Positions 26,963 to 42,740 of a stretch of DNA of 64,000 nucleotides are shown here, in pieces. Location of the stretch: assembly GCA_037043015.1 (NCBI GenBank), contig CM073322.1, positions 19,355,601-19,419,600 on the forward strand, read 5' to 3'. Position numbers and translations under genes: made by a program. The notes below the pieces were generated by a model, which was not told the origin of the DNA, searched no databases, and saw nothing but the letters and a program-made list of their open reading frames with translations. Position 1 is the first letter of the stretch. Each line of letters opens with the position of its first letter. Source of the stretch: Bryum argenteum. Taxonomy: Eukaryota; Streptophyta; Bryopsida; Bryales; Bryaceae.

Positions 26963-26965
26963 GAG
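26963..26965. repeat. Target-site duplication GAG, left
   Basis: GAG directly before CACTA, repeated at 42,738-42,740 directly after TAGTG. Confidence 0.88.
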
Positions 26966-26995
26966 CACTACGGCAGAATACTACACTTCATGACT
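26966..26995 (+). repeat. CACTA left terminal inverted repeat
   Basis: About 30 bp starting CACTACGGCAGAATACTACA and ending in TGACT. Pairs with 42,708-42,737 with two mismatches. Confidence 0.92.
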
Positions 26996-27560
26996 AGCGT
27001 TTATGACTGTGCAGAGTCATAAAATCCAAAAATATGACTACAATGGGTCTATCATCACATGACGCGCGCGGTGACAGTGTCTAGTAGTTACCGACGAGTC
27101 GCTTCAGACAGCCTGTCATATAAATAAATACGCCTTGAAACGTATACTTAGGGCCAATGTACGTGCCACGTCAGCGTTTTCGCCCCCATTTTGACCCACC
27201 TGTTGACTACGACTTTTCTTGACCTGCCCGGGCAGCTGAGCCTAAAATCCAACGTGGCATGTGACTATGGCGAGTCACAATTTTTGCTGACGTGGATTAT
27301 GACTCTATTGAGTCGTATTTTTGCTTACGTGGCAGCGCCACGTGGAATATGACTGCTCGTCATATTATAGGCTGACGTGGAATGTGACTCTTGCAGGTCA
27401 TGTATTTTGTCATAATGTGGAGTAAGTGAAATGTGGGTGCCTGTCACATTTTGAGACTATGGTGGAATATGACTCTATGGAGTCATATTGTGTGTGATAA
27501 TGTTGGTCATGATATTTAGGCTGACGTCGAATATGACTTTGTTTAGTCGTATTTGGGCCG
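26996..27560 (+). repeat. CACTA 5' subterminal repeats
   Basis: A dense array of short direct and inverted motifs: 'gctgacgtggaatatgactc', 'tatgactctattgagtcgta', 'gaatatgactctatggagtc'. The core is TGACTC / GAGTCA next to 'acgtgg'. Such subterminal arrays bind the element-encoded TnpA-like protein in En/Spm; that role is inferred here. Confidence 0.8.
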
Positions 27561-28212
27561 ATGAAAAGCCTTCAGTTCGGGATTGTTGTAACTTTCTGTA
27601 GTCAATTAGTCATGTTTCTAAGAACGTCATCTGTAATTCAATTTTTGAGCAAGAGAGAGATGACTGGTTTTAGTCACAATGTCGGTTTTGGTAAGAACAT
27701 ATTACCACTCAGAGCATTTTGTGACACTCATATGACTCTAGCCGCATAACATCATAGAGTCATATGGTGAGGCACACGGAGCCACATTACTAGGATTGTA
27801 TACACGCAAATGACGGCTTTGTGTTATATTCACATGACGTTGTGTGATATTCTTATCACTCACGATTGTAGACTACACAAATCATGTCGTCTTTTTCATT
27901 ACAGGCAATCATGGGCACAATATAGTCATATGCAATGGGATGCATCACGTACAAAAAATATTGGAGAATGTTGGATAAATGCGACAAAAGGCTAAATTTT
28001 GTATTTAGTCCCGAAATTCTACATACAATACCAATCATGAGACAAACGCAACACACTTAGTATCTAGCATAAGTCAAAGACCAACACTTTGAAGTTATTG
28101 AAAGTGTCTTACATAATATAGATTAGGTCGCCTTCAAATAGAGATCACGGGCCACTTCGTAATGGAGTTTAGTACATCTCCCAAGCGTTGCATTGGTGGA
28201 TCATCGTCATTG

Positions 28213-28458
28213 TTAGGCTCGAACAAATACAAATAAGCGTTTCGATCCTGGTACAAGCGATGAAATCAACACTGAAGCATTGCCCTCCTCAATCATCCTG
28301 CCATGCATCGTGCCTCCTGCAAGGCTCACAATTGAGCCATGAGCAACCACTTTGTCAGTGGACTCGTAATTATCGTCAAAATCCATGACGGCCACCTTTG
28401 AATGTGGTGCCAACGTAGTTGGTGCCACCTCCACCAACATCTCCTCGGCGCTAGAGTC
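28213..28458 (-). CDS. TNP1-like terminal exon
   Basis: The acceptor CAG|GACTCT at 28,459 continues in phase from the donor CCG|GTAGGT at 28,611. The 81-codon exon contains HSKVAVMDFDDNYES, then DKVVAHGSIVSLAGGTMHGR and SVLISSLVPGS. This pattern (VxVMd...kVAxGxIxS...tMHG) is typical of the C-terminal domain of CACTA second genes. The stop TAA is at 28,213-28,215. Confidence 0.6.
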   Translation of the reverse strand, partial: DSSAEEMLVEVAPTTLAPHSKVAVMDFDDNYESTDKVVAHGSIVSLAGGTMHGRMIEEGNASVLISSLVPGSKRLFVFVRA

Positions 28459-29489
28459 CTGTATCAAGAATTGAAAGGTCCACCATATTAATGACTACAT
28501 ATCGCAACTAACCGTTTTGAAGCATAAAAACCAATGAATAGGATGGAAAAGAAATGATGAGAGAGCTTGCATGGTTTCCAATTATGGGGTATGAAGCGGT
28601 CATGGACCTACCGGCTTCCGTAGTATCGCAGCGAGGCGGATTTTCTCGCCCAAGCATTCCACGCAATATTCCATGTCCGATGGGTTACGCGCTAAGGCTT
28701 CAAATGGCTCTATCAGACGGGTGAGATAGTCGTCATTTGGCTCTAATGGGTTCCATCGTGGACAAATGAGGAGATTGGATGGAGGGGACTCATTCGTTGC
28801 GGTTGCATCGCAATCGAATTGAAGGCATCGAGACGCAATGGTCAAGATAATGGGACCGCTAAAGAAATCATTGAGATTTCTTTTTTCGTACCGCTAAATT
28901 CCTTTCCCCACAAAAACTCCACTTTATCCTTGTGGAGTTCCCCAAGAACTTAGCTACAACCTCTAGTAGATCATGCGCTCAATAGGGGACCATATCCCCA
29001 CATCAAAACGAGTACAAACATGGACAAGAAAGGGCCACAATCAACCCTTTTCTTGATTTTCACCGGTGGTCTTTATGGAAGTGGACCACTAGATCTGCAC
29101 CCCACTCTTGCCTATCGTGTAGTGGCTTGATGTCACATAAAAGCCCTACAACGTTCAAAACGATCACCTTTCTACGCAAATTATCGTAAAGGCTTACCGG
29201 TGGACATTTCCCTCCGCCTCTAGCCTTCTTCTTCTTTGCGGACTACTTCCTTTGTCTCGCTCGCTTCTTCTTTAGTGCAGGCTCCTCCCGCCTCTCTTCG
29301 TCATCCTTTGAGCACCACATCAATAACATATGGTCAAACAAAGTGATTTTCCACAAACAAATATTTTCCACACTGTTTGTATAAAGAAAACTATGTGATA
29401 CGATGTTCCACTACGTTTATGACTAATATGTGTTATATTTTGTGCAATAGTGACTACTTCATGTCACATTAATGATGTACATTATCGAT

Positions 29490-29730
29490 GCCTGTGACAT
29501 TCATATAATATTACCGATTTGTGTGACATTCCCCGGGTGCGTTCATCGATTTGTGTCACATTCTCTAGGCATATCACCGACTTGTGTCACATTCCCTGGT
29601 ACGTTACTCATTTGTGTCACACTTTGTCTAGGCATATCACCGACTTGTGTCACATTCCCTAAATATATGATCGATCCTCGTCACATACGTTGGGTAAATC
29701 GTATGATCGATCCCTCACACAATCGTTGAT
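29490..29730 (+). repeat. Tandem repeat 'ttgtgtcacattccct'
   Basis: About six copies of a 30-40 bp unit, 'atcaccgacttgtgtcacat' + 'tccct.g.cg/a', between exons of the minus-strand gene. The last copies drift to 'atgatcgatcctcgtcacat'. Each copy carries a GTGACA-type motif related to the subterminal core. Confidence 0.75.
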
Positions 29731-30572
29731 TACATAGCTTTTCTCTCATTGCGTAAAATCAACACTTATTCTACAAGCGAGTGCAAGGGTACCTTGTCCT
29801 TTGCAGTTGCGCGGCGCGTGGTACGACCTTTGGAGTCCTCCTTGAGCTTCTCAACCTCGCCCTTCCTCTTCTTCGGTGATTTTTTATCCTTCTTCATGTA
29901 TACTTGGGTTGCAACGGGTTACGAGAGGCGGTCCAAGTTGCATTTTCCTCAAAGTTGATGGCAGTGTTTGCAGCAAGTTTTACCGATTTCACACATTCAC
30001 CGCCCCCACAGTCACTGGACTTCATGGTAGCCTCCTCCTCCTGATACAGTAGAGAAAAGTGAGGAAAACATGCACTATGAATGATTCACCAACCATTTAT
30101 TACCTTGATTGACTCATTGAAGTAGATTTGGTATGTGTTGAAGGCATACCGTGAACCTCCTTTAGCTACCTTGTGGCGATTCGTGGACTTCCGTATTCTT
30201 GGCGCTTTCATCATGTCCCACACCGGGTCTATGATTTCCGTAGATACAACCGGCGGTTCCGCGGCTTTTAGGTGGGCCTCCTCCAATCCCGTGTGGTACA
30301 CTTTTGAGGTGAGGTCAGTGTCGATGGCAACCGTTGCTTCCGAATTCGAGTAGCGACTCTTTGAGGCTATTTTTCACGCCCTCTAACTCGCCTTTGACGT
30401 CTTGTATATGTGCCTCCACTTCGCTCCTTAAAGCTTGCACACACTCGTAAAGAGGACCCGACGCCTTTTGAAGTAGATGACTGGGGCGATGGATTTCCCG
30501 GTGTCATAAGCTCCGCTCGACTTCTAATTGTGTTGGAGGCCGATCCAATCGCATGACACCAGAATAAACACA

Positions 30573-30831
30573 AAATATAACTAACATCGCTTATTATTTC
30601 TAGAAAATATGACTAACATCGCTTAATATTTCTAGAAAATATGACTAACATCGATTATTATTTCTAGAAAATATGACTAACATCAGTTATTATTTCTAGA
30701 AAATATGACTAACATCAGTTATTATTTCTAGAAAATATGACTAATATCAGTTATTCTTTCTAGAAAATATGACTAACATCAGTTATTATTTCTAGAAAAT
30801 ATGACTAACATCGCTTATTATTTCTAGAATA
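30573..30831 (+). repeat. Minisatellite, 32-bp unit, 8 copies
   Basis: Near-identical 32-bp units 'aaatatgactaacatcgctt' + 'attatttctaga', eight in a row; variants differ in 'cgctta', 'cgatta' or 'cagtta'. Lies in an intron of the minus-strand gene and repeats the element's TGACT motif once per unit. Confidence 0.92.
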
Positions 30832-31784
30832 TCTCACCGTCTCGTAGTCGAAACCAAGAATTAAAACAGAAATGATCGAATTTGGGGAGTGTGTCTTACA
30901 AGTCGAGATCTCACTTCCCCTTCGAGACTGCGGAGTGTGACACATTCGCAAATTCCTCCGACACACCTCATACGTTTTGCCTCCGCTATCTTGTCCTCCC
31001 TTGCTATGAGCTTCTTGAAGTTCTCCTCGTGTTCTTTTTCACGTAGCCTGGTAGAGGTGGCCCTTATCAAGCGACTTCTTCATGTTTGACCTCCTCGTGC
31101 GCTAGATTGTTGACGCAGCTTCTTGGAAGAACACGTGCTCGAACATCGCCCAACCCACCCCGATATTCAAACCGTGAGGCCAAATTGTCCTTGATTTGCG
31201 GGAGCAAAGACTCGTGAATGCACTTTGAAGTTGTCCTCGCTCCAAATCAAGTCTCGAGAATGGCCCCGAAGTTTCGTTAGCCAATCGGTCCTACGCGATC
31301 CTCAGAGGGTACCCAAAGATCATCAACTTCAACCCATAATGCCGGCTCCGTCTCTGCTGATCTCTTCATGTTACGCCTCAAACCCTTCAATTTCGACTGA
31401 CGGTGTGGCGATGATGCAATATTCCTAACCTTTTTTCGTAACTCAGTAGGATCTGCACCCTTCTGTGCCATCCGCTTCAGAACCCCAAGTTCACGTAATT
31501 CGATCTCGTCCATGACTTCTGTGCATCGCTCGGGTGGTGCCTCCTCCTCTTCATCTTCACTGTAGTTGTCTTGCTCAACCTCCTCTTGTGCTTCAGACCG
31601 AGGGATGGTCTCATCGTCACCGTCAGTCATGCTCCCCAACAGTGTCGAAGAAGCCATTTTGCTCTTCTTTCGACGAAATCGCGCAGTCCAGGGCCTGGGC
31701 TTATCAATAGAATGACGTATGACCTACAAGAAGAACATTAGATAGAATTAAGAGATCGCCTACAGTTAATGATTGATTACCTAG

Positions 31785-32012
31785 TCAATATGACTAAAAC
31801 CAGTTATTTTTATTCATTTATGATTGCTGGTAGTCATATTTACAGCAACATCACTACAACCAGTCATATTTTATAGTCAACAACATCACTACAAGTAGTC
31901 ATTATCATTATTCATTTATGATTCTTTGGTAGTCATATTTACAAAGAACATGACTACAACCACCATATTTTATAGTCAACAACATCACTACAAGTAGTCA
32001 TTATCAATTTTT
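31785..32012 (+). repeat. Duplicated intron block with AGTCAT motifs
   Basis: Two copies of roughly 75-80 bp: 'ggtagtcatatttaca..aacatcactacaacca', 'catattttatagtcaacaac', 'atcactacaagtagtcatta'. In the intron between 32,469 and 31,723. Confidence 0.75.
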
Positions 32013-32468
32013 TTTTTTCATAATGAAATTGTTTCCTAGTTATAGAACAATTAGTATTAGGACTTTGATTATGTTAAGGGTGCTTTACAATACAGACTAT
32101 GAAGATTGGTCATTTGCTCTAAAATTTGATATAGAAAGCGTTGTAAGTTTGACTTTACACTATCTCAAAGAAGAAGGAATGATTACTAAGTTTGAGGTCC
32201 CTAAATTATACATATTTTTCTAAATCAGAAAATGTTCCTCGATGGCTCGGTCTAAGTTGAGTCTTTTAATTTTATTATCACGACATATACATGGACATTA
32301 CAGAATTCTAAGGCACCAGAGAGACCAGAAAAACTAAGAAGCATTAGTCATATTGTTGTACAAGTATATCTGAATAAAGTAGAAGAGTTACAATTTGACG
32401 GTTTGACATTCTAAGTTTCATTTAGGCAAATTACATGAAACAACAAGGTACAGTGTTTGGCAACTTGC

Positions 32469-32780
32469 CTTTTGTTGCTTTGTTTGTAACTGCTCTTCAA
32501 TAAGTTCCTCCTCACTGTTGTCATCTTCGCTGCTCTCTCCCTCTGAAAGCCGCCTCCTTTGCGTTGATCGAGTGCGCGACGGCTTCAAAGTCGAAGGTCC
32601 TTCCATTGGCAAGGTATGGCTGCTCTCAACAACATGCGCAATCTCAACCGAAGTCATTTCTAAGATCGGCAAAGTAATGGCAGGGAAAGAAGCAATGGTT
32701 CGAAAAACTTCAATTTGTTTATTATCGGATAGGTTAGCAATGTCTCTTATCACTTTTCCAACAAGATTAGCCATATCCAC
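32469..32780 (-). CDS. Exon of CACTA second gene (acidic)
   Basis: 104 codons, MDMANLVGKVIRDIANLSDN to LQTKQQK. It has a hydrophobic helical start, then a basic RTRSTQRRR and an acidic serine-rich SEGESSEDDNSEEELIEEQL. It ends at a perfect GC-AG-type donor AAG|GCAAGT and splices in phase to 31,723. The function of this part is unknown. Confidence 0.5.
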
Positions 32781-33289
32781 AGAATTTATGACTACTCCAA
32801 GTCACTGCTGCAGCTTAATGTGACTACAGGAAGTCACAATCTCTGCACATACAACGCCACGGTCTCACAATACTCATTACAACTTCAAGTACTTTCATCT
32901 CTAAGCCTCTCTACAACTATAGCCAACACAAACTGAAAAAATCAGAGTTCTAATCAACTACACAAATGTAATACACAATAGTCTCAAACGATCAAGGAAT
33001 ACAACGAACAAAAAATGACCGATATCTGCCATATGTGCTCTGTCAAGGACCAGGAACTGTGCAGTAATCTCCGTCAACAGAGAATGGTTCGACACAGTCA
33101 AAGAATGCGGCACAATCTCAAACAGCAAGGCCTTCAGACTCGGTTCCTCACTCACAATTGCAGCTTGGCGCTTGACATGTGCAAAAAATTCGATGAGCTC
33201 ATATCATATGCAGAAAATTCGATGAGCTAATATCACGGAAAATCCTAGCAAAATGGTAGTTTTGGTATGAAGCTCAAAATATTATCATC

Positions 33290-34010
33290 TTGATGGGGTT
33301 GCTCATACTGTTACTGACAGATCCAGCAAGAATCAAATTTTGCAAAATTCTTCAACAAACCGGCAACAACATCGGTATCAACAAGGGACCCTCCTGCTTC
33401 CACCCAAACAGACGTCGAACAAACAATCCCTGTTACCAAAGACCTCATGAATATCTCTCTGATGTTGCCAAACAAATTCTTAAAAGGTTCAGTTATACTA
33501 GACGCAATATCAGAAAGTCTAGCTTTCAGTAGCAGAGTGGTGAGGCTATGGTCAATTCTATGAATGATGGTACGAGTCGGTAATTGCAAGTTCGTTTGAT
33601 GAATTTATAAACATGCAACATTTAAGCATCAGAGCACCAAGGTCATGACTTACTAGCACTTCACTCACAGTAACATTTAGAAACTCATAAAGATCAGAGA
33701 AAAGCCTCATCTCCTCATGACACCTTAAGATCCTGATACCAAATACCTCAGGAATGTCTCAGTCTAGATCCTCTAACAATTTAGTCACACTAAACGCAAT
33801 CTTGAAAGCAAAAATATAACATGAGTGTTGAGGCTAAAAGGGCTCAAACAAAGGATCAAATTTCCTGGTACTTAACCTTCTTGGTACCAAAGAGCTTCTC
33901 ATGAATGTCTGTGACTCAATAATGCTGTCAAACAGATCCTTGAAAGATTTCATTATTAATATGAAAAGTCTAGTTTTCGGTATCAACAAATATAATGACG
34001 ACGTCACGAG
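33290..34010 (-). repeat. Three ~280-bp repeats, probably former exons
   Basis: On the minus strand three segments (near 34,000-33,860, 33,800-33,680 and 33,520-33,400) each encode a variant of DIxE-x-FG (DIHEKLFGTKK, DIPEVFGIRI, DIHEVFGNRD) preceded by a KxLxDLxD/E-type helix. They look like a tandemly duplicated exon that has lost its frame. Confidence 0.45.
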
Positions 34011-34422
34011 AGACTCGATGCTGAGGAGCACGATCACCGTTACTGAGGATCACCGTTACGTTGCTCAGGATCACCGACTGAGCTGAGGATCACACTTAGC
34101 TAACTGACGAGCATGATCACCAAACTGACGATCATGCTCGGCACCGCTCCGGACCCTTGCTCGGGTAACGTCCCACGCCTATGTCGCCCTGGTCAACCGA
34201 AGAGATGCTTGCGTCCCTTCTCGTAACAACTTACAATTGATACTATTCTAGGGGAGGGGACTCACCAGGCAAATCTCAGTGGCAGCTTCCGAAACACCCA
34301 ACAACGACTCCAACACACGCACAATCCTAAACGAATGCTCACGTATCGCGTCTCGGCCCTCCAGACAATGAGCCAAGCTCTTCAGACTTTGCACAACAAT
34401 ACGAACTCGCTATCTATCTAGC

Positions 34423-34830
34423 TTACTCCACTGCAACAATCACCGATCAGTCAAAACTCCTAGTACCATGCAGTCACTCTCTCCACAGAAGCTTGGCCAT
34501 ACTCATGAAACCTTACTCATCCCCTACCAACACCATCAATCCCGAAACGTGACAAAATGAGAATCAAAAATGCAAAATGAACACGAACAACTGCAGCTAC
34601 GTGAAGAAGAAGTCGACCAAAGTCACCCACAAAATCAATCAGACCTACTCCACTCCAACAATCACCGATCATTCAAAAACCCATTCCTCTCTACCATCCT
34701 GCACTCTTACTCTTCAACAAAAGCTCGCCCATACTCATGAAACCGCACTAATCCCATACCAACACCATCACTCCAAAACACAGAGCTACGAGGTCAACCA
34801 AAAAAGTGCAAGATGAACACGAGCACCGCT
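34423..34830 (+). repeat. Two-copy direct repeat, ~210 bp
   Basis: Copy one begins 'cttactccactgcaacaatc', copy two 'acctactccactccaacaat'. Both continue 'accgatca.tcaaaa', 'ctcatgaaacc.cactaatc', 'taccaacaccatca', and end 'gcaa(a/g)atgaacacga.ca'. About 80% alike by eye. Confidence 0.7.
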
Positions 34831-35459
34831 GCACGTATGAGTTGCTAGAACAGACATGGCTGGAGATCGATTGCATGAGTTCGTGATCATTACCAGGATC
34901 ACCGTGAAGATCAAGCAGTGACTTCTTCCTGAACAGGTGACTCTTTGTCCCCACACTATATTCCGTAAGAATCCCGAGACAGTCCAATCGATCGAGCACC
35001 GAATCTAGTTGCTACTTCGTCCTTCTGAGCGTTTCGAAGCTCCTGCTTAAATGCGTCGAAGAGGAGGAGGACGCCCAAGGCATCTGCGACTATCGGTGGA
35101 CAAAACCCTAAATGGTAATCAATGCTTGAAACCCTAATTGATGCATGAAGGGCAACCTAAATAATGAACTGTGAGGAGGGCACTACCGTCGGTGAGGAGA
35201 GAGCTTGAATGCGTCGGTGAGGAGCACGAGACGAGGAGATCACCTCTTCCCGGCGCGGCGCAAAGTTCCGGTCTGGGGCGACAGGCCGGCCAGGAGGAGC
35301 TGAGGAGCTGAATGCAGCCTCGAAGAGGAGGGCGCCCGAGTTCCCGCGGAGTGGCTCGATGAGCAGATGCTCACGCAGCAAAGACTTTGCCCTTACATTC
35401 GAAGCTCTACTTCGGAGTGGAATCAAGAGGCAGGCAAGAGGCGCAGAAATTTCACTCAC

Positions 35460-35593
35460 CTCTTTTCTTGGGGTTTCTTGAAGCCCGTCGTTGCACGTGG
35501 AGACACAGGCAAGCCTAAACCACGCATCACCTCCTTGTTTTTGGCAATCCTGTCGTTTCTAAGCTTCTCGTAATTAGATTCATCAGACGCCAT
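35460..35593 (-). CDS. First exon of CACTA second gene
   Basis: ATG at 35,593, 45 codons, MASDESNYEKLRNDRIAKNK to KKPQEKR, ending in a consensus donor GAG|GTGAGTG. A tyrosine-led basic/acidic helix of this type begins many plant CACTA-associated and B3-like proteins. It faces the plus-strand gene across about 1.17 kb, which therefore serves as a bidirectional promoter region. Confidence 0.5.
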
Positions 35594-36762
35594 CAAGCCT
35601 GGTCACAATCATCGCCCGTGAGAAACGCACGATTGCACTCGAGAAAGGTTGTTCCTGTGAGCTAGGGTTCCTGTGTGTGCCACGTCGCCCTTGTCAACCG
35701 AAGTTGACCGGACTCTGCCGACTAGCACATGGGTTACAGGCTCTAGTTAGGCATGTTACTGCCTTCAGTCATTTGCTTGTATTTTGTTACAGGCTCTTGT
35801 CATTCACATTTATTTGGTTACAAACTTGAGTTATCACCCATGTTACTGCCTCCCATGTACCAGTACCTTGTCTGTTGTAGTAACTTACCACTTGCTCAGC
35901 CTAATGTATTTTTCATGTCATGTATCCCTTCCCAATTCTCTCATCCTCATGTGAAATAAAGGTTAAAAATTGCTTTTTGTTGTCAAAACTACTTTCCACT
36001 ATGTACTTGTACTATTTGATTGCAACCTACAGTAGAAGTGCAACATGCGAGGTCATACTTACTGAAAGCAAATGTCATAGGGGATTTTAGAGTTTATTGT
36101 GATCCGTGAGTTTGAAACATAGTAAGTGAGTTTGAAACATAGTAAGGTGTGGAGAGCCTTGTCCGAAACGGGTGTTTTCAACTTAGATAGACCAGCCTCT
36201 CATATAGGTCAAAATTTCAATGAAAGTACTAGCACGTGACAATAGTTAATAAAAAAATTCAAGGGTTGGAATTTGGTAACAGAGATCGAAGTTCTCCATT
36301 CTTGTATGGGATTTGTATTAATTTTGTTGTTAAGGCTAGAGTCAATTTGTAGAAGTAACAAGGGTGCCTTATATAGAAAAATAAGAAGCATTAGTCATAT
36401 TGTTGTACAAGTATATCTAATAAAGTAGAGGATTTACAATATAGTTCAAAAAAGCTAATTACATGGTCAAAGATGGTTCGAATTTTGGTTATAGATTCTC
36501 TAAGTTTTATGACAACTACTAGTCACGTATGTGGTATTTGGAAGTCATATAACACCCTCATGTCATTTGCATCACTATCGCTTGTAATAAATATGGTCGT
36601 TTTCTCTTACATGACTTTCTAAGTCCAGTGATATTTTTGTTGCACAAAGGTATGCGAGATCTCGAGATCTCATGTGGCATGCAATGTGGTGCAGAATTGT
36701 ATTGTCATAGCCTCAAAGAGCTCCTTGTCCCTCTGAACATGTGTTTTGGTTCCTTGCAGACA
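35594..36762. promoter_or_regulatory. Divergent promoter region inside the CACTA element
   Basis: Lies between the minus-strand first exon (start 35,593) and the first plus-strand coding exon (ATG 36,763). It has no recognisable protein. It carries AGTCAT motifs at 36,385-36,620 ('agcattagtcatattgttgt', 'tactagtcacgta') like the other non-coding parts of the element; the phrase 'agaagcattagtcatattgt' also occurs at 32,337. Confidence 0.4.
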
Positions 36763-36960
36763 ATGAAAGAAGGGGAGCTCCAACACTTAAAGCATCTACA
36801 ATTATGGCAAGAGGAAGAGATTCAAGCGGATACCCTGCGATTAACGAAATACCCATGTCCATGCACTGAATGTGCAGGAGGGAAAGTTCTTGATCGAGCC
36901 ACAATTCGGAAGCATCTTCGTAGTCGAAAAAGGGACCCCGTTTTTACAGCATCGATCTTG
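36763..36960 (+). CDS. Transposase N-terminal exon with CPC zinc motif
   Basis: After an acceptor TTGCAG the ATG at 36,763 opens 66 codons. They contain KYPCPCTECAGGKVLDRATI followed by RKHLRSRKRDP, i.e. CxC-x2-C...H, the zinc-finger-like signature of the transposase-associated N-terminus of plant CACTA transposases. The exon ends in the donor CTTG|GTAAGTG at 36,961. It probably contributes DNA binding. Confidence 0.65.
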
Positions 36961-37184
36961 GTAAGTGATTGCAACCAACGAGTCATTCTAAATTAAAGCG
37001 ATGTGGTTCTATGTACGATTTGTAGACTTTAAACGTTTGTGTACCCAAATTATGTAGGCTGGGTGGCGACCCATTGTCAGATCAGCATGTTTGAAATCAC
37101 TGAGAACATTCTTAAGTCAAAAAGAGTCCTCCGATCGCGCCATATCCACGTCTACATCCGCAAGATCCAGTCGTTTGCGAGACC

Positions 37185-37691
37185 ATGCGTTCAAATGTGT
37201 CTGACGGACAATGGTGCGACGGACCCATTCCAAAGCTAACACGATTCTCATATTGGAAAAGAGATTGGGAAGTGAAGGTGTCCAAATTTGGCTTCATGGG
37301 TTGGGGTCTGTTTGCAATGCAACCTGCCAAAGAGGGTGAGGAACTGCTTCCTTTCGTCGGACCACAATACACCTCCGCGGAATACAAAACATTGAGCAAG
37401 GCACATCCTCGGATGAAGTCGTACGTGATGCGTGCGGAGTCCGACTTGTACATTGACGGAGATGTACTGAAAGGGAATGTAGCTGGATTCATTAATAGTT
37501 CCATCGGGCGCAGTGAGATAGGGAATGTTGTGTGGGAGTATCGCATGTTTCCTAAACCGTGGAACACTTTGGAATGGGGATATGTGATTACCATAGCAAC
37601 AAGGGACATCAAGGCAGGAGAAGAACTCTACGCACATTACTCCCTGCAGCAAGGCAACATTGGCAAACGAGTAAATGTAATGAAAGACTAG
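37185..37691 (+). CDS. SET-domain protein carried by CACTA transposon
   Basis: An intact frame of 168 codons. The SET fold is clear: SKFGFMGWGLFAMQPAKEGE (residues 33-52, the AdoMet-binding GxG at 39-41), LLPFVG (54-59), then LYIDGDVLKGNVAGFINSS (88-106; N104 corresponds to the Asn of the NHS motif, His replaced by Ser), VVWEYR (115-120), and DIKAGEELYAHYS (141-153; GEEL and Tyr as in the last SET motif). No pre-SET or post-SET cysteines are seen. The expected activity is lysine methylation of histones or another protein, if catalytic. It sits between the CPC exon and the acidic/Tnp2 part on the same strand. A donor CGA|GTAAAT at 37,672 and acceptor GTTTGCAG at 37,938 would join it in phase to DQCSPLNLVQ of the transposase. 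As a stand-alone ORF it ends in TAG at 37,691. Confidence 0.8.
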   Translation: MRSNVSDGQWCDGPIPKLTRFSYWKRDWEVKVSKFGFMGWGLFAMQPAKEGEELLPFVGPQYTSAEYKTLSKAHPRMKSYVMRAESDLYIDGDVLKGNVAGFINSSIGRSEIGNVVWEYRMFPKPWNTLEWGYVITIATRDIKAGEELYAHYSLQQGNIGKRVNVMKD

Positions 37692-38287
37692 TTGAGGCTT
37701 GAACGCGAAATTATAATCGTTGTATGTCCATGACTAGTATATTACTTATAGTATGACCAAAGATATTAGTCAAATTTTTTTGAAGATGACTATAGACAAT
37801 CACTATTCCCTATTGTAATGTGATTAATCGACATCGTTAGTCATATTTTGCACACCACGCATTCAATGAGTACTTTCCTTGCGTGAACAACACTTAACAT
37901 CATGGATACACTTGTCATGCACGTGGATGGGTTTGCAGGATCAGTGCAGCCCCTTGAATTTGGTCCAAAATATAGAGCGGAATACTGAAGACAACGACTC
38001 TGTGTCTAATCATACATTGGATAGCAACGAAGTTGGAGAAGTAGATGTTTTGCGCATGGTGGCCGATTGCTTCAACAAGTATGACAATATCAACTTAATG
38101 GAGAGCGACACCAACCCTTCTCATCACGACGGAGTTGATGTTGCGTTCGTTGAAGCTTCGCATTGTCCGGGCGATGGCTTCCCAATAAGTGACAACGAAG
38201 GTAGCGATGACGATGCACAGGAAAACAACGACCCTATGGAATTAAGAGGGACAACCACGAACATCAACGACGCTAGCGGTATTCTTT

Positions 38288-39499
38288 GTGGAGGCCCTAC
38301 TACGCGAAGCAAAGACTCCACTTTATGTAGGGAGCTCTTCCAACCGTCTGACCTCCACGCTCATGCTACTTGTTTGTTGCAGCACATTCGGTGTACCAAA
38401 CAACTTTGTGGACGAGTTGTTGAAGTTATTGCAGGAGACAATATTGCCCAAAGGCAACACTCTCCCAAATACATTTTACGCGGCAAAGTGTTTGTTGATG
38501 AAGTTGGGATTGTCCTACGACTCTATACATGCTTGTAGAGACGGGTGTTGTTTATTTCGGAAAGATTTGGAGGATGCAACAGAGTGCCCAGTTTGCCACA
38601 AATCCCGGTATGCTGACAACTCCAAAACAATACCTGTCAAAGTATTGAGACACTTTCCATTGATTCCTCGTTTGCGAAGAATGTACAGTTGCCCGCGGTT
38701 GGCAGAGCTCATGAAGTGGCACACAGGCGGAAAAAGCAAGGACAAGGTGATGAGATCCGTGGTTGACTCAAAGGCATGGAACCACGTGAATAATAGATGG
38801 CCGGAGTTTGCAAACGAAGAACGGAATGTTAGGCTAGGCTTGGCACTAGATGGTGTGAACCCGTTTCGAAACCAAAGCCTTAGCCACTCAACATGGCCTG
38901 TCGTCATGCTAAACTACAATCTTCCCCCTTGGCTAGTGACCAAAAACTTCTTTCTGATGCTTACGTTACTTATACCCGGGAAAGAAAGTGTGACAGATAA
39001 AAACGTGGATGTATATCTAGCACCATTAATTGAGGAGCTACAGGAGCTATGGGAAGGGACCGATTGCGTAGATGGATCACAACAAAAAACTGGTGACAAT
39101 ACATTCAAGCTTCGAGGTATGTTGTTGTGGACGGTGAACGACTTTCCGGCATATGGACTGATTTCTGGCCAAGTCACAAAAGGACATAAGGCATGTCCCG
39201 TCTGTGGACCCAACATAGTAACGCGGCGCTCAAAAGCGCTCAAGAAGAATGTCTACCTTGGCCATAGACGATATTTGCCAATGGAGCACCAATGGAGGCG
39301 ACAAAGGGTCAATTTTGATGGCCAACCAAACATGAGACCTCCTCCACGAAGGATGAGTGGTGGAGAGCACTTGCAATTTGCAAATGAGCGACAACAATGG
39401 ACGGCAAACAACTGTGCAAATGAAAGAGGACGGACGCCACACCCAATACATGAGCACGGAGTGAAGAGAAGGACATGTCTCTTTCACCTTCCGTACTGA
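38288..39499 (+). CDS. Tnp2 catalytic core ORF
   Basis: The longest open frame in the window, about 400 codons, covering the Tnp2 domain from REAKTPLYVGSSSNRLTSTL to RRTCLFHLPY. It has a CxxC pair (CPVCHKSRY), the RNVRLGLALDG strand with the likely catalytic Asp, the NLPPWL motif and a second CxxC (ACPVCG). The first codon shown is GTG, so the frame must be entered from upstream by splicing or a frameshift. It ends at TGA exactly where LPYW is expected. Confidence 0.88.
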   Translation: MEALLREAKTPLYVGSSSNRLTSTLMLLVCCSTFGVPNNFVDELLKLLQETILPKGNTLPNTFYAAKCLLMKLGLSYDSIHACRDGCCLFRKDLEDATECPVCHKSRYADNSKTIPVKVLRHFPLIPRLRRMYSCPRLAELMKWHTGGKSKDKVMRSVVDSKAWNHVNNRWPEFANEERNVRLGLALDGVNPFRNQSLSHSTWPVVMLNYNLPPWLVTKNFFLMLTLLIPGKESVTDKNVDVYLAPLIEELQELWEGTDCVDGSQQKTGDNTFKLRGMLLWTVNDFPAYGLISGQVTKGHKACPVCGPNIVTRRSKALKKNVYLGHRRYLPMEHQWRRQRVNFDGQPNMRPPPRRMSGGEHLQFANERQQWTANNCANERGRTPHPIHEHGVKRRTCLFHLPY

Positions 39500-39502
39500 A
39501 AA

Positions 39503-39662
39503 GTACGTGTATCTAACGCAGTGTTGTAGTGTGACTTGACTGTACGTAGTGATTTTATGGGTAGCATGTCCATATGCAGTCATATGATGAGGAATGTGAC
39601 TATACATAGTGATAATGTACTATATGGAATCTAATTTGTGACTGGCCGGAGTCACTGTACAG
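39503..39662 (+). other. Transposase intron 1
   Basis: GTACGT...TGTACAG, 160 nt, in-phase junction K|DLLIRHTLDVMH. It contains seven or so GTGACT/AGTGA motifs, the same core as the subterminal repeats. Confidence 0.6.
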
Positions 39663-39724
39663 GATCTGCTAATTCGACACACGTTGGATGTCATGCATCG
39701 TGAAAAAACATTGCGGAGAATATC

Positions 39725-40327
39725 ATGAAGACCATATTTGGAGAGAAAGATACCCTTGCAGCCCGCCTCGATATGAAGGAAGCGGGGATACGCAAACATC
39801 TTTGGCCCGTACGCGGTAAAAAACATGGTAGGGTTATGTTACCTCGTTCATCATACGTTCTTACGAAAGAAGAGCGACAAGTCTTTGTAGACCAAGTTCG
39901 CTCCTTGCGAACCCCTACTCAATACGTCGGGCAACTAAAGAAGCGGGTCAGCATAGACGGACAAATCAAAGGCCTTAAATCACATGACTACCATGTTCTT
40001 CTTCAGCAAGTGTTGCCACTATGTGTGCGCACTACAATGACTAAGGAAGTCCGTATGACAATAATAATGCTGAGCCGGGTATTTCGGCGGATATGTGCAA
40101 AGTCCATTGATCCCTCGGCAATAGAAGATATGAGATGCCAAGCGGCCATCGCATTATGCATGTTGGAGAAGGAGTTCCCGCCGTCATTCTTTGACATTAT
40201 GAGCCACTTGGTTATCCACCTTGTAGAGGAAGTTGAAATATGTGGACCCGTGCATACTCGATGGATGTACCCTATAGAGAGGTACTTGAAGACTCTCAAA
40301 GGCTACGTTCAAATCGATGTCAACTGA
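39725..40327 (+). CDS. Transposase C-terminal region (DUF4218-like)
   Basis: 200 codons, continuous from NIAENI just upstream, with KTIFGEKDTLAARLDMKEAG, KSHDYHVLLQQVLP, CMLEKEFPPSFFDIMSHLVI and RWMYPIERYLKTLKGYV. These are standard landmarks of the domain that follows Tnp2 in plant CACTA transposases. The frame ends at TGA 40,325; the same frame resumes coding at SRLRQSTALGFCTEYM. Confidence 0.85.
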   Translation: MKTIFGEKDTLAARLDMKEAGIRKHLWPVRGKKHGRVMLPRSSYVLTKEERQVFVDQVRSLRTPTQYVGQLKKRVSIDGQIKGLKSHDYHVLLQQVLPLCVRTTMTKEVRMTIIMLSRVFRRICAKSIDPSAIEDMRCQAAIALCMLEKEFPPSFFDIMSHLVIHLVEEVEICGPVHTRWMYPIERYLKTLKGYVQIDVN

Positions 40328-40557
40328 AGAAAAAGATGGTCAAGGCTACGTCAGAGTACAGCACTCGGATTTTGCACCGAGTATATGCAAGAGTATACGA
40401 CTACTACACGAAGAGTGTGGGATGATAAAGAAGACCCGTCCATGTACGACGAGATCCTTGAAGGCAACGAGCGTCCACGCCGACTCTCACGTGACCTTCG
40501 AGGATGGATTCACGAGTTTGTGGTGACTAATGCAGCACCATTGGAAGATTGGCGCAG

Positions 40558-40875
40558 GTGAGTCTACACGCAAAAAAGGCTCACGTGGATTATGACTCCG
40601 ACTACACTCGCTGTAATTGTATCCACTAATATTGATGATTATCATGACTACCTTCAGTGATGTTAGCGACTGCCCCTTGTGATGTCAGTGGCAACCCCAT
40701 ATATGTTGGCGTTTGCTTCTGGTGACATAAGTGATTGCCGAGAGTGATGGAAGCGACTATACTCAGTGATGTAGTTGTTGCAACAAGCCTCCACAGGTGG
40801 CTATAAATTACATTCTACTCTAACAGAATTTTCTAGAAGGTGCCATTGACCATATAGAACTCTTCTATTTTTCAG
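40558..40875 (+). other. Transposase intron 2 with GTGAT motifs
   Basis: The donor CGCAG|GTGAGT and acceptor TTTTTCAG restore R|RHEDDMARREAERH in frame, 318 nt. About ten copies of GTGA(C/T)/TGACT motifs at spacings of 20-40 nt occur at 40,580-40,780. Confidence 0.7.
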
Positions 40876-41656
40876 GCGACACGAAGATGACATGGCACGC
40901 CGTGAGGCAGAGCGTCACAAGTATAGGCGCAAAAAGCGAAAGGCTAGGGTAGCCTACCCTTCAGAGATGTGTGATGAAGAGTTCCATGTCTGGTTTCCAA
41001 CGGCTGTGATACGAGTAGAGAAGATGGAGACGAGGAGGTCCCTACCGATGTGCGGCCTTGATGCTACCTCCATCGTAGTATGCGAAGTCGATCGATCCAT
41101 GTATGCATTTGGGAACCACATACGTGTAAGGAGTGCAGAGGCGCATTTGACAACCGCGGACTCGGGAGTAGCCGCAACCTTTCGTCAACTTTGTCGCGCG
41201 GGTAGAAAGGATACAAATCTTCGGGCAACAGAGTTGGAGTATGTGGGGTGGGTGGAGGAAATTCTATTAGTGAACTATGGACGATTTGAGGTCGTGGTCC
41301 TATATTGCAATTGGGTGATTGCAAATATGAGAGGAGATGGCGCTACAATGAAGCGCGATGATTACGGTTTCACCACCGTAAACTTTGAGAGGCTGATCCC
41401 ATACTCTGCACAATCATTTGCCTTCCCACTCCACATCGAACAGGTTTTTTTTGCATCTGACATGGCCAAGCGTGGATGGGAAGTTGTGTTGCGGAGAGAA
41501 CCGAGAGGAGCTCGGTCCTTCTCCAAGCATCACATCTCCGATGAAGTTCAATGCATATCATTGGGTAGAGCATGTGATTTTCCTGGACTCGAATCTACGA
41601 GCCTAGATTCGGATGTCTTACCACGAACACCTATTCTCGTTGGTGCGGAGAAGTAG
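40876..41656 (+). CDS. Transposase last exon (DUF4216-like)
   Basis: Basic RRHEDDMARREAERHKYRRK start, EMCDEEFHVWF, then LEYVGWVEEILLVNYGRFEV, NFERLIPYSAQSFAFPLHIE, VFFASDMAKRGWEVVLRREP. The pattern matches the DUF4216 module at the C-terminus of plant CACTA transposases. Stop TAG at 41,654-41,656. Confidence 0.8.
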
Positions 41657-42369
41657 CCCTGAGGGTGGTTGCCATCGCATTAGATCGCATTAGCCAAGAT
41701 GACACATCCGTAGATGATTTAGAATATTGCGACTCATAGCACGATTGAGACTCTATTCAATCATTGACAGTTTTATACATTCCAATCGTTCACCATATAT
41801 ATATACACATATATTCACATGTGCAAACAGAATGACCAAACACTTATTGGATCTATATGCATGCCAATGTATCCATTCATGCATGTTTGGCCATGTCTAG
41901 TACAAATGAAAATGCAATTTAATGTAAACAGAAAACGCATATAACTGCGCAAACTAGGTATATGATCAATCTTTTAAAGTTTACAATAGTTTAGAGTCAC
42001 GTCGTAGATTAAAGTACTATAATACAACCCTTATATAAACTAGAGGTCCTGCGTGACCACTAAACCTAGTCACACCACTATGCTCTAGAAGTATTACAAA
42101 AAGTCTATTGAGTCTTTGAGCTATTTATGTTTTCATCAAGTGAATTATAAAACCTAAACCACAATCAACCCTTAATTCCATTGTGCCAAATTTGATATTA
42201 CTAAATATTCGACACAAATCATCCTTATTAAATGAATACACTAAATCCCCATACTATACAGTAAAGGGGAGGGCCAAAATATATGTAAATTTTCTAAGGC
42301 AGTCTATATAATCTTAGGCAGTCTGGTCAACCAAAAAAATTAAAAAAAAAAAAAAAAAAAAAGACGAGA

Positions 42370-42707
42370 ATGTGATCAAAGCCAAAATATGATCACGCAA
42401 AAAAGTCGACGTGGAATACGATCAGCTAAAATATGGCTTGTGCCAAGTCTGACTGCAAAATATAACTGCTCCCAATATATGACTGCCAAATATAACTGGA
42501 CGTTCCCCGCGATCGTTCCCGTTTGTTCCCTACAAAGGTGTACGACCCTCCCATGCACTTTATACGCACTTTAAACGGTACAGCTGGCAAATATGACTAT
42601 AGAATATGACTACAAGTCATATTCTCAACTTCGCAATCCACCAACGGTTTTGCCCCAAAAAAATATGACTGCTTCTAGTCGCTTGTCATCCTCAGTCATA
42701 TCCTCCC
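42370..42707 (+). repeat. CACTA 3' subterminal repeats
   Basis: Motifs 'gtcgacgtggaatacgatca', 'aatatgactgc', 'aatatgactatagaatatga' and 'gtcatatcctcccagtcata' repeat the ATATGACT / AGTCATAT core found at the 5' end. An A-run of about 20 lies at 42,341-42,361. Confidence 0.75.
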
Positions 42708-42737
42708 AGTCATAAAGTGTAGCATTCTGCCGTAGTG
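42708..42737 (-). repeat. CACTA right terminal inverted repeat
   Basis: Reverse complement starts CACTACGGCAGAATGCTACA; two mismatches to the left TIR. Followed by the GAG duplication. Confidence 0.92.
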
Positions 42738-42740
42738 GAG

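Follow-up and report, generated by a model that had tools for sequence, protein, structure and literature searches.

A SET-domain exon carried by CACTA transposons of the moss Bryum argenteum and its predicted joining to the CPC exon of the transposase gene

When a SET domain is found inside a transposase gene, does it belong to the transposon, and to which protein is it joined? This question is raised by a CACTA transposon of Bryum argenteum, located in a window of 64,000 nt (contig CM073322.1 of assembly GCA_037043015.1, positions 19,355,601 to 19,419,600; coordinates below are positions in this window, on the plus strand unless stated). A previous sequence-only reading had placed a SET domain between an exon with a CPC motif and the Tnp2 transposase core on the same strand, assigned it to the transposon itself and proposed that it may be fused in frame to the transposase. 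The arrangement was borne out, and so was the assignment to the transposon, by many copies in five subfamilies; the gene model has to be revised. From the genomic sequence we consider it probable that a clade of CACTA elements gained, apparently once, a SET exon in its transposase gene, that alternative splicing would yield both a CPC-Tnp2 and a CPC-SET protein, and that the result would be chromatin methylation at the element.

The SET exon as part of a multi-copy transposon

In the window copy, the CPC exon is followed on the plus strand by the SET exon, an acidic segment, the Tnp2 core, a DUF4218 segment, a further conserved segment and a DUF4216 segment (Table 1). The SET domain matches its Pfam profile (PF00856) with 44.2 bits at a curated cut-off of 22.4 (E 2.8e-11), and E-values of 1e-74, 1.4e-26 and 6.7e-8 were obtained for Tnp2 (PF02992), DUF4218 and DUF4216, respectively. 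The CPC exon alone gives two sub-threshold matches in Pfam, to Transpos_assoc (E 0.0022) and, better, to U-box (E 0.00035). The 168 codons that had been described as an intact SET domain proved to be the open remainder behind a frame break in its N-terminal part, caused by an extra base at 37179, and the exon start shared by the copies lies at 37058 instead of at an acceptor near 37170-37185. Relative to copy L009 (collected copies and loci bear L numbers), the window copy is damaged by one additional base each at 37179 and 38284; in L009 the acidic-Tnp2 frame is open over 529 codons. The frame is open from the SET acceptor into SET in 8 of 15 copies of subfamily A, to which both copies belong, and it is not open in L015, L016, L018, L020, L025 and L028.

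Searched with the SET frame, the genome yielded 106 matches at 73 loci on eleven contigs, and a single odd insertion was rejected on this count. Twenty loci were read (19 of 9.9 kb and one of 4.9 kb), taken from the top of the match list and thus not at random. All of them have the CPC exon ahead of SET, and 17 have Tnp2 behind it on the strand of SET. L014 and L016 are without Tnp2, and the sequence of L026 reaches only to just past SET. Later segments keep the same order where present, one or more being missing in some copies, and DUF4216 stands on the opposite strand in L016. The order CPC-SET-Tnp2 on one strand was also found in L029, a member of subfamily C.

The linkage was also counted for the best 150 of 596 Tnp2 candidates; of the SET candidates, 150 of 330 were scored. 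SET lies within 10 kb of 21 of the 150 Tnp2 matches, in all 21 cases on the same strand and 1.24-1.95 kb upstream (start to start), compared with a mean of 0.06 and a maximum of 2 such pairs in 1000 trials of random placement, for which the sizes of two contigs were rounded guesses; a chance open reading frame (ORF) was rejected on these numbers. No SET is located within 10 kb of 129 of the 150 Tnp2 matches, so that SET marks only part of the CACTA elements. The Tnp2 match C1:31619759 sits 10.7 kb from SET locus L016, just beyond the limit.

The earlier description recognized a CACTA transposon at 36763-41656, and the element is larger (Table 1). Its left terminus reads CACTACGGCAGAATACTACACTTCATGACT and its right terminus, inverted, CACTACGGCAGAATGCTACACTTTATGACT, with GAG on both sides; of the features of the CACTA/EnSpm superfamily, CACTA-starting terminal inverted repeats and Tnp2 (Transposase_21) are present. 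Identical 3-bp flanks were found in 9 of 10 subfamily A copies with both ends read, comprising nine distinct triplets (gag, cac, tga, tta, ccg, aaa, atg, gtt and aga), the exception being L014 with gtt/ata, which is one of the loci without Tnp2. DNA of the left terminus has matches at 20 places, and all 12 of those with at least 98% identity have SET downstream, in the right orientation and about 6-27 kb off. This pairing and the identical flanks indicate that SET travels with the transposon. The motif ATGACT/AGTCAT occurs at 3.6 per kb inside the element and 5.3 per kb in its left 3 kb, compared with 0.6 and 0.7 outside, an enrichment resembling the subterminal repeats typical of CACTA elements.

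Table 1. Coordinates of the CACTA transposon and its features in the 64,000-nt window
Feature	Positions	Strand	Remarks
Complete CACTA transposon	26966-42737	+	15,772 bp; terminal inverted repeats CACTACGGCAGAAT(A/G)CTACACTT; GAG duplication at 26963-26965 and 42738-42740
Opposite-strand ORFs	28213-32801	-	five scanned, 93-148 amino acids, one acidic; possible second transposon gene
CPC exon	36763-36960	+	C-P-C-x2-C motif; ATG at 36763; ends ...SIL, donor GTAAGT at 36961, phase 0
SET exon	37058-37691	+	acceptor ATGTAG, phase 0; own stop TAG at 37689-37691; extra base at 37179
Possible intron from SET to Tnp2	37671-37938	+	GTAAAT ... TTTGCAG; would fuse in phase 0
Acidic segment and Tnp2 core (PF02992)	37939-39499	+	one extra base at 38284
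DUF4218 segment of transposase	39704-40327	+	Pfam match
Further conserved transposase-region segment (M403)	40328-40558	+	conserved among copies
DUF4216 segment	40850-41656	+	Pfam match

A Pfam scan of the minus-strand ORFs in the left part of the element gave no family above the cut-off, and they possibly represent a TNPA-like gene. In subfamily B, left ends read CACTC (CACTCCGGCAGAAA) at position 6906 of L021, 7257 of L022 and 2528 of L026. These three copies have the flank ttagagag in common and may therefore belong to a larger unit that was duplicated. In copy L019 (G000:C4:6523600-6555765), the two gtt flanks match and are separated by about 32 kb, suggesting that another element may be nested within it.

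Subfamilies and origin of the SET exon

The SET-bearing copies were assigned to five subfamilies, namely A (the window copy, L009-L020, L025 and L028), B (L021-L024, L026 and L027), C (L029, L044-L047, L049, L050, L052 and L053), D (L048 with L064) and E (L051 and L054-L056 with L063), and SET is found at the same point in all of them. Between the subfamilies, SET is 54-76% identical, and SET and Tnp2 identities run in parallel (76 and 77 for C-D, 56 and 52 for A-E). Upstream of three C-like SET copies (L057-L059), neither the CPC exon nor the exon start was found.

Relatives without SET are represented by L060-L062, which were chosen for their long frames from 14 PF13963 matches. In them, one frame of 622-680 amino acids spans CPC, the acidic segment and Tnp2, with no SET in the 3 kb examined, and their CPC part is related to the CPC exon of the SET-bearing copies (tblastn, E 1e-10 to 2e-6). 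Since CPC and Tnp2 are encoded there in one frame, the transposase gene seems to have received SET by insertion. Relatives lacking SET at this point, the occurrence of which had been named as evidence against a SET-bearing family, thus do exist in L060-L062 and among the 129 Tnp2 matches mentioned above, but they stand outside the clade, and none of the five subfamilies lacks SET there. A tree built from 24 Tnp2 rows (185 columns, midpoint rooting, a long E row) separates the 12 SET-bearing rows from these three SET-less relatives by a branch with 100/100 support, and nine public rows, the SET status of which is not known, cluster with subfamily A. These data fit a single acquisition of the SET exon by one CACTA clade, although they do not prove it.

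Predicted products and function of the SET domain

The CPC exon ends in SIL or a variant thereof and is followed in subfamilies A to E by the phase-0 donors GTAAGT, GTTAGT, GTACGG, GTATGT and GTAAGC. The SET acceptor ends in TAG, is in phase 0 in all five subfamilies and leads into the homologous start xxxRPxV, and the acceptor of the acidic exon is in phase 0 in A to E as well. A pattern search recognized the CPC donor in 27 of 38 rows (23, plus four of subfamily E) and the SET acceptor in 32 of 38, in L020 shifted by one through an indel; rows without such a call are shortened sequences or pattern misses. As there is no ATG common to the subfamilies at the SET exon start, translation most likely proceeds from the CPC exon, at least in A-C. 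All junctions being in phase 0, skipping of SET yields CPC-Tnp2. Judged from these signals, the join of CPC to SET would be what all five subfamilies share.

The mechanism that we favor would operate as follows. In the transposase gene, the SET exon separates the CPC part from the acidic/Tnp2 part, and alternative splicing of this one gene would use the CPC exon as a shared first exon. Skipping of the SET exon would give a CPC-Tnp2 transposase with the layout of the SET-less relatives, and its inclusion a short CPC-SET protein terminated by the stop codon within the SET exon. Through the CPC domain common to both proteins, the methyltransferase may then be brought to the DNA or protein partners of the transposase, and methylation at these sites could keep the chromatin of the element open against silencing or aid transposition. 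This model resembles the TNPA/TNPD splicing of Spm. More tentatively, and with somewhat less confidence than an even chance would give, SET may be regarded as a symmetric phase-0 cassette that lets the transposase share its CPC exon with a histone methyltransferase targeted in this way. Some subfamilies might make the triple protein as well, as a third product, and the element would thus write its own mark via the targeting domain of its transposase.

In the alternative that the sequence-only reading had proposed, SET would be spliced in frame to Tnp2, and CPC, SET and Tnp2 would form a single protein in which the methyltransferase is part of the transposase. The donor CGA/GTAAAT (GT at 37671; slashes mark the splice border) and the acceptor GTTTGCAG/GAT (37939) named for this fusion both exist, both in phase 0, and candidate phase-0 donors were found at the SET end in A (GTAAAT), B (GTGAAT) and C (GTAAAC), each with a phase-0 acceptor following. 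Nevertheless, a general fusion is not supported: subfamily D (one copy, L048) has no GT before the SET stop, and in E the good donor AA/GTAAAT is in phase 2, while phase 0 offers only the poor candidates GTTGGG or GTCGGG. The SET frame stops at most 17 codons after GEELxxxY in 30 of 31 copies matched by this pattern, which left 7 of 38 rows unmatched, broken ones among them; in L050 the frame continues for 26 codons. SET is matched by 64 public proteins (from the sources ena, lgn, jgi, ncbi and src), of which the 27 aligned end at most 16 residues past the motif, their C-termini not being certain stops since contig ends may cut them. Of these 27, 14 have V before the terminal N, 10 have L and one has I, whereas P0003 and P0029 lack the N. 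A codon for L or I at this place leaves no phase-0 GT, which, as read from protein, argues against the fusion there. With a fused SET-Tnp2 query, nine public proteins were obtained among 8000 candidates, all of them Tnp2 only, ORF calls being blind to introns. On account of the early SET stop, the missing donor in D and the doubtful one in E, we rate CPC-SET as the shared product; the triple fusion is possible in A-C and, as the explanation of the SET exon, unlikely.

Regarding the type of enzyme, the nearest solved relatives by profile are H3K4-specific enzymes (E 2e-6), followed by ASH1L, SETD2, MLL/HRX and EZH2 (to E 0.006), the closest of them being of the H3K4 and H3K36 types, and in NCBIfam, SET matches only a model of a bacterial SET protein, far below its cut-off. 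The predicted structure has a mean pLDDT of 75 and a pTM of 0.69. These matches bear on a second alternative, according to which the element restrains itself through the SET protein, which would mark element copies for silencing and so limit the copy number. The sign of the effect is not decided by the data, and the repressive EZH2 is among the weaker matches; the better ones are H3K4-specific enzymes, ASH1L and SETD2, which are linked with active chromatin, and we regard self-restraint as improbable.

The SET core was compared in the copies open across it (28 of 38 collected) and has a length of 140 codons in 27 of them and of 139 in one. The proportions of synonymous (pS) and nonsynonymous (pN) differences between subfamilies range over 0.53-0.97 and 0.14-0.35, respectively, and corrected values for C-D are 0.91 (dS) and 0.16 (dN). 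Within subfamilies, pN/pS amounts to 0.38 in A (9 copies), 0.27 in B (5) and 0.18 in C (8), the pair tests comprising 24 of the 28 copies. That SET is functionless passenger cargo, a captured fragment of a host gene, is very improbable given its retention at the same site and in the same phase in five such divergent subfamilies, the one indel in 28 open cores and a pN well below pS, even though CACTA elements capture host sequences (Pack-CACTA, PMC8616336) and many SET copies contain stops.

Several observations weigh against the favored model of a CPC-Tnp2 transposase and a CPC-SET methyltransferase. The restriction to open copies lowers pN. In the SET domain, the NHxC motif reads FINSS; all 28 rows of alignment A1 retain N, whereas His is replaced. 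Some genome copies (L053, L055) have lost N as well, and no post-SET cysteine cluster follows the domain. The NHxC motif and post-SET cysteines are typical of SET methyltransferases, though not present in every one. Methyltransferase activity is therefore uncertain, and we call it plausible. Furthermore, subfamilies A, B, C and E each have a GT in phase 0 close to the end of SET, which would permit the triple fusion, an M near the SET exon start in E and several public relatives might allow SET to start alone, and an acidic-exon ATG common to A-D (RM) could start Tnp2 independently. Finally, a Tnp2 partner is among the best 150 matches for only 21 of the 73 SET loci, the others being undecided by this set, in which some loci that do have Tnp2, such as L029, are unpaired.

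SET genes in other mobile elements and meaning of the finding

A second SET family, SU(VAR)3-9-like by eye, was observed in the same genome (L004-L008 and L030:769-1854 on the minus strand). Its SET domain scores above the Pfam cut-off, with Pre-SET just below the cut-off in L007 and L008, and it sits 2.0-5.0 kb from a multi-copy ORF of 362 amino acids. Within 5 kb of this ORF lie 64 of 150 SET matches, all 64 on the opposite strand, with a mean of 0.75 and a maximum of 5 in 500 random trials, which likewise used rounded guesses for the sizes of two contigs. The ORF has 114 genome matches and 125 public relatives; it gave no match in Pfam or PDB, and no Pfam domain was found among 120 of the 125 relatives. 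It may contain DDE-like motifs. The ORF and the second SET together would seem to form an unrelated mobile family that brings along a SET gene of its own. As this repeat family adjoins a different SET type, SET acquisition may be recurrent in this genome.

Plant CACTA elements usually combine Tnp2 with DUF4218 and DUF4216. The elements described here agree with En/Spm in the CACTA termini, the 3-bp duplication, Tnp2 and both of these domains, and differ in having the SET exon. SETMAR (Metnase), with which the sequence-only reading had drawn a comparison, is a host gene in which SET is joined to a mariner transposase. Both cases have SET joined to transposon-derived sequence, whereas in B. argenteum a multi-copy Tnp2 element carries SET, joined to the CPC exon.

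The structure of CACTA elements is as given in PMC4158355, and in one moss genome they form the largest class of transposons with terminal inverted repeats (PMC11704416). According to Kojima and Jurka 2014 (cited in PMC12730594), a gene for a SET histone methyltransferase is present in HarbingerS and SET-bearing MuDR families of Phytophthora, and the wording "several lineages, such as" in the citing source implies that further SET-carrying transposons may be known. These are likewise DNA transposons with a SET methyltransferase gene, but they belong to other transposase superfamilies; the transposase here is Tnp2 of the CACTA type and not that of Harbinger, and the SET exon lies inside its gene. 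Fungal transposons bearing TET/JBP, which include EnSpm and Plavaka (PMC12730594), also encode an enzyme acting on epigenetic marks and in part belong to the CACTA group, yet theirs is a dioxygenase acting on methylcytosine in place of a SET domain. A CACTA element with a SET domain was not found in the open-access literature among the matches listed, in line with the novelty suspected earlier. SET-carrying DNA transposons are thus already known, and as far as literature searches show, the novelty lies in the CACTA carrier, in the insertion of the exon and in the sharing of the CPC exon.

Transposons have mostly been studied as targets of chromatin silencing, and a clade in whose transposase gene a SET domain is retained under constraint makes it testable whether elements can set histone marks on themselves. 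The finding extends the enzyme-carrying transposons to CACTA elements, and the inserted phase-0 exon suggests how such cargo was wired into a transposase gene.

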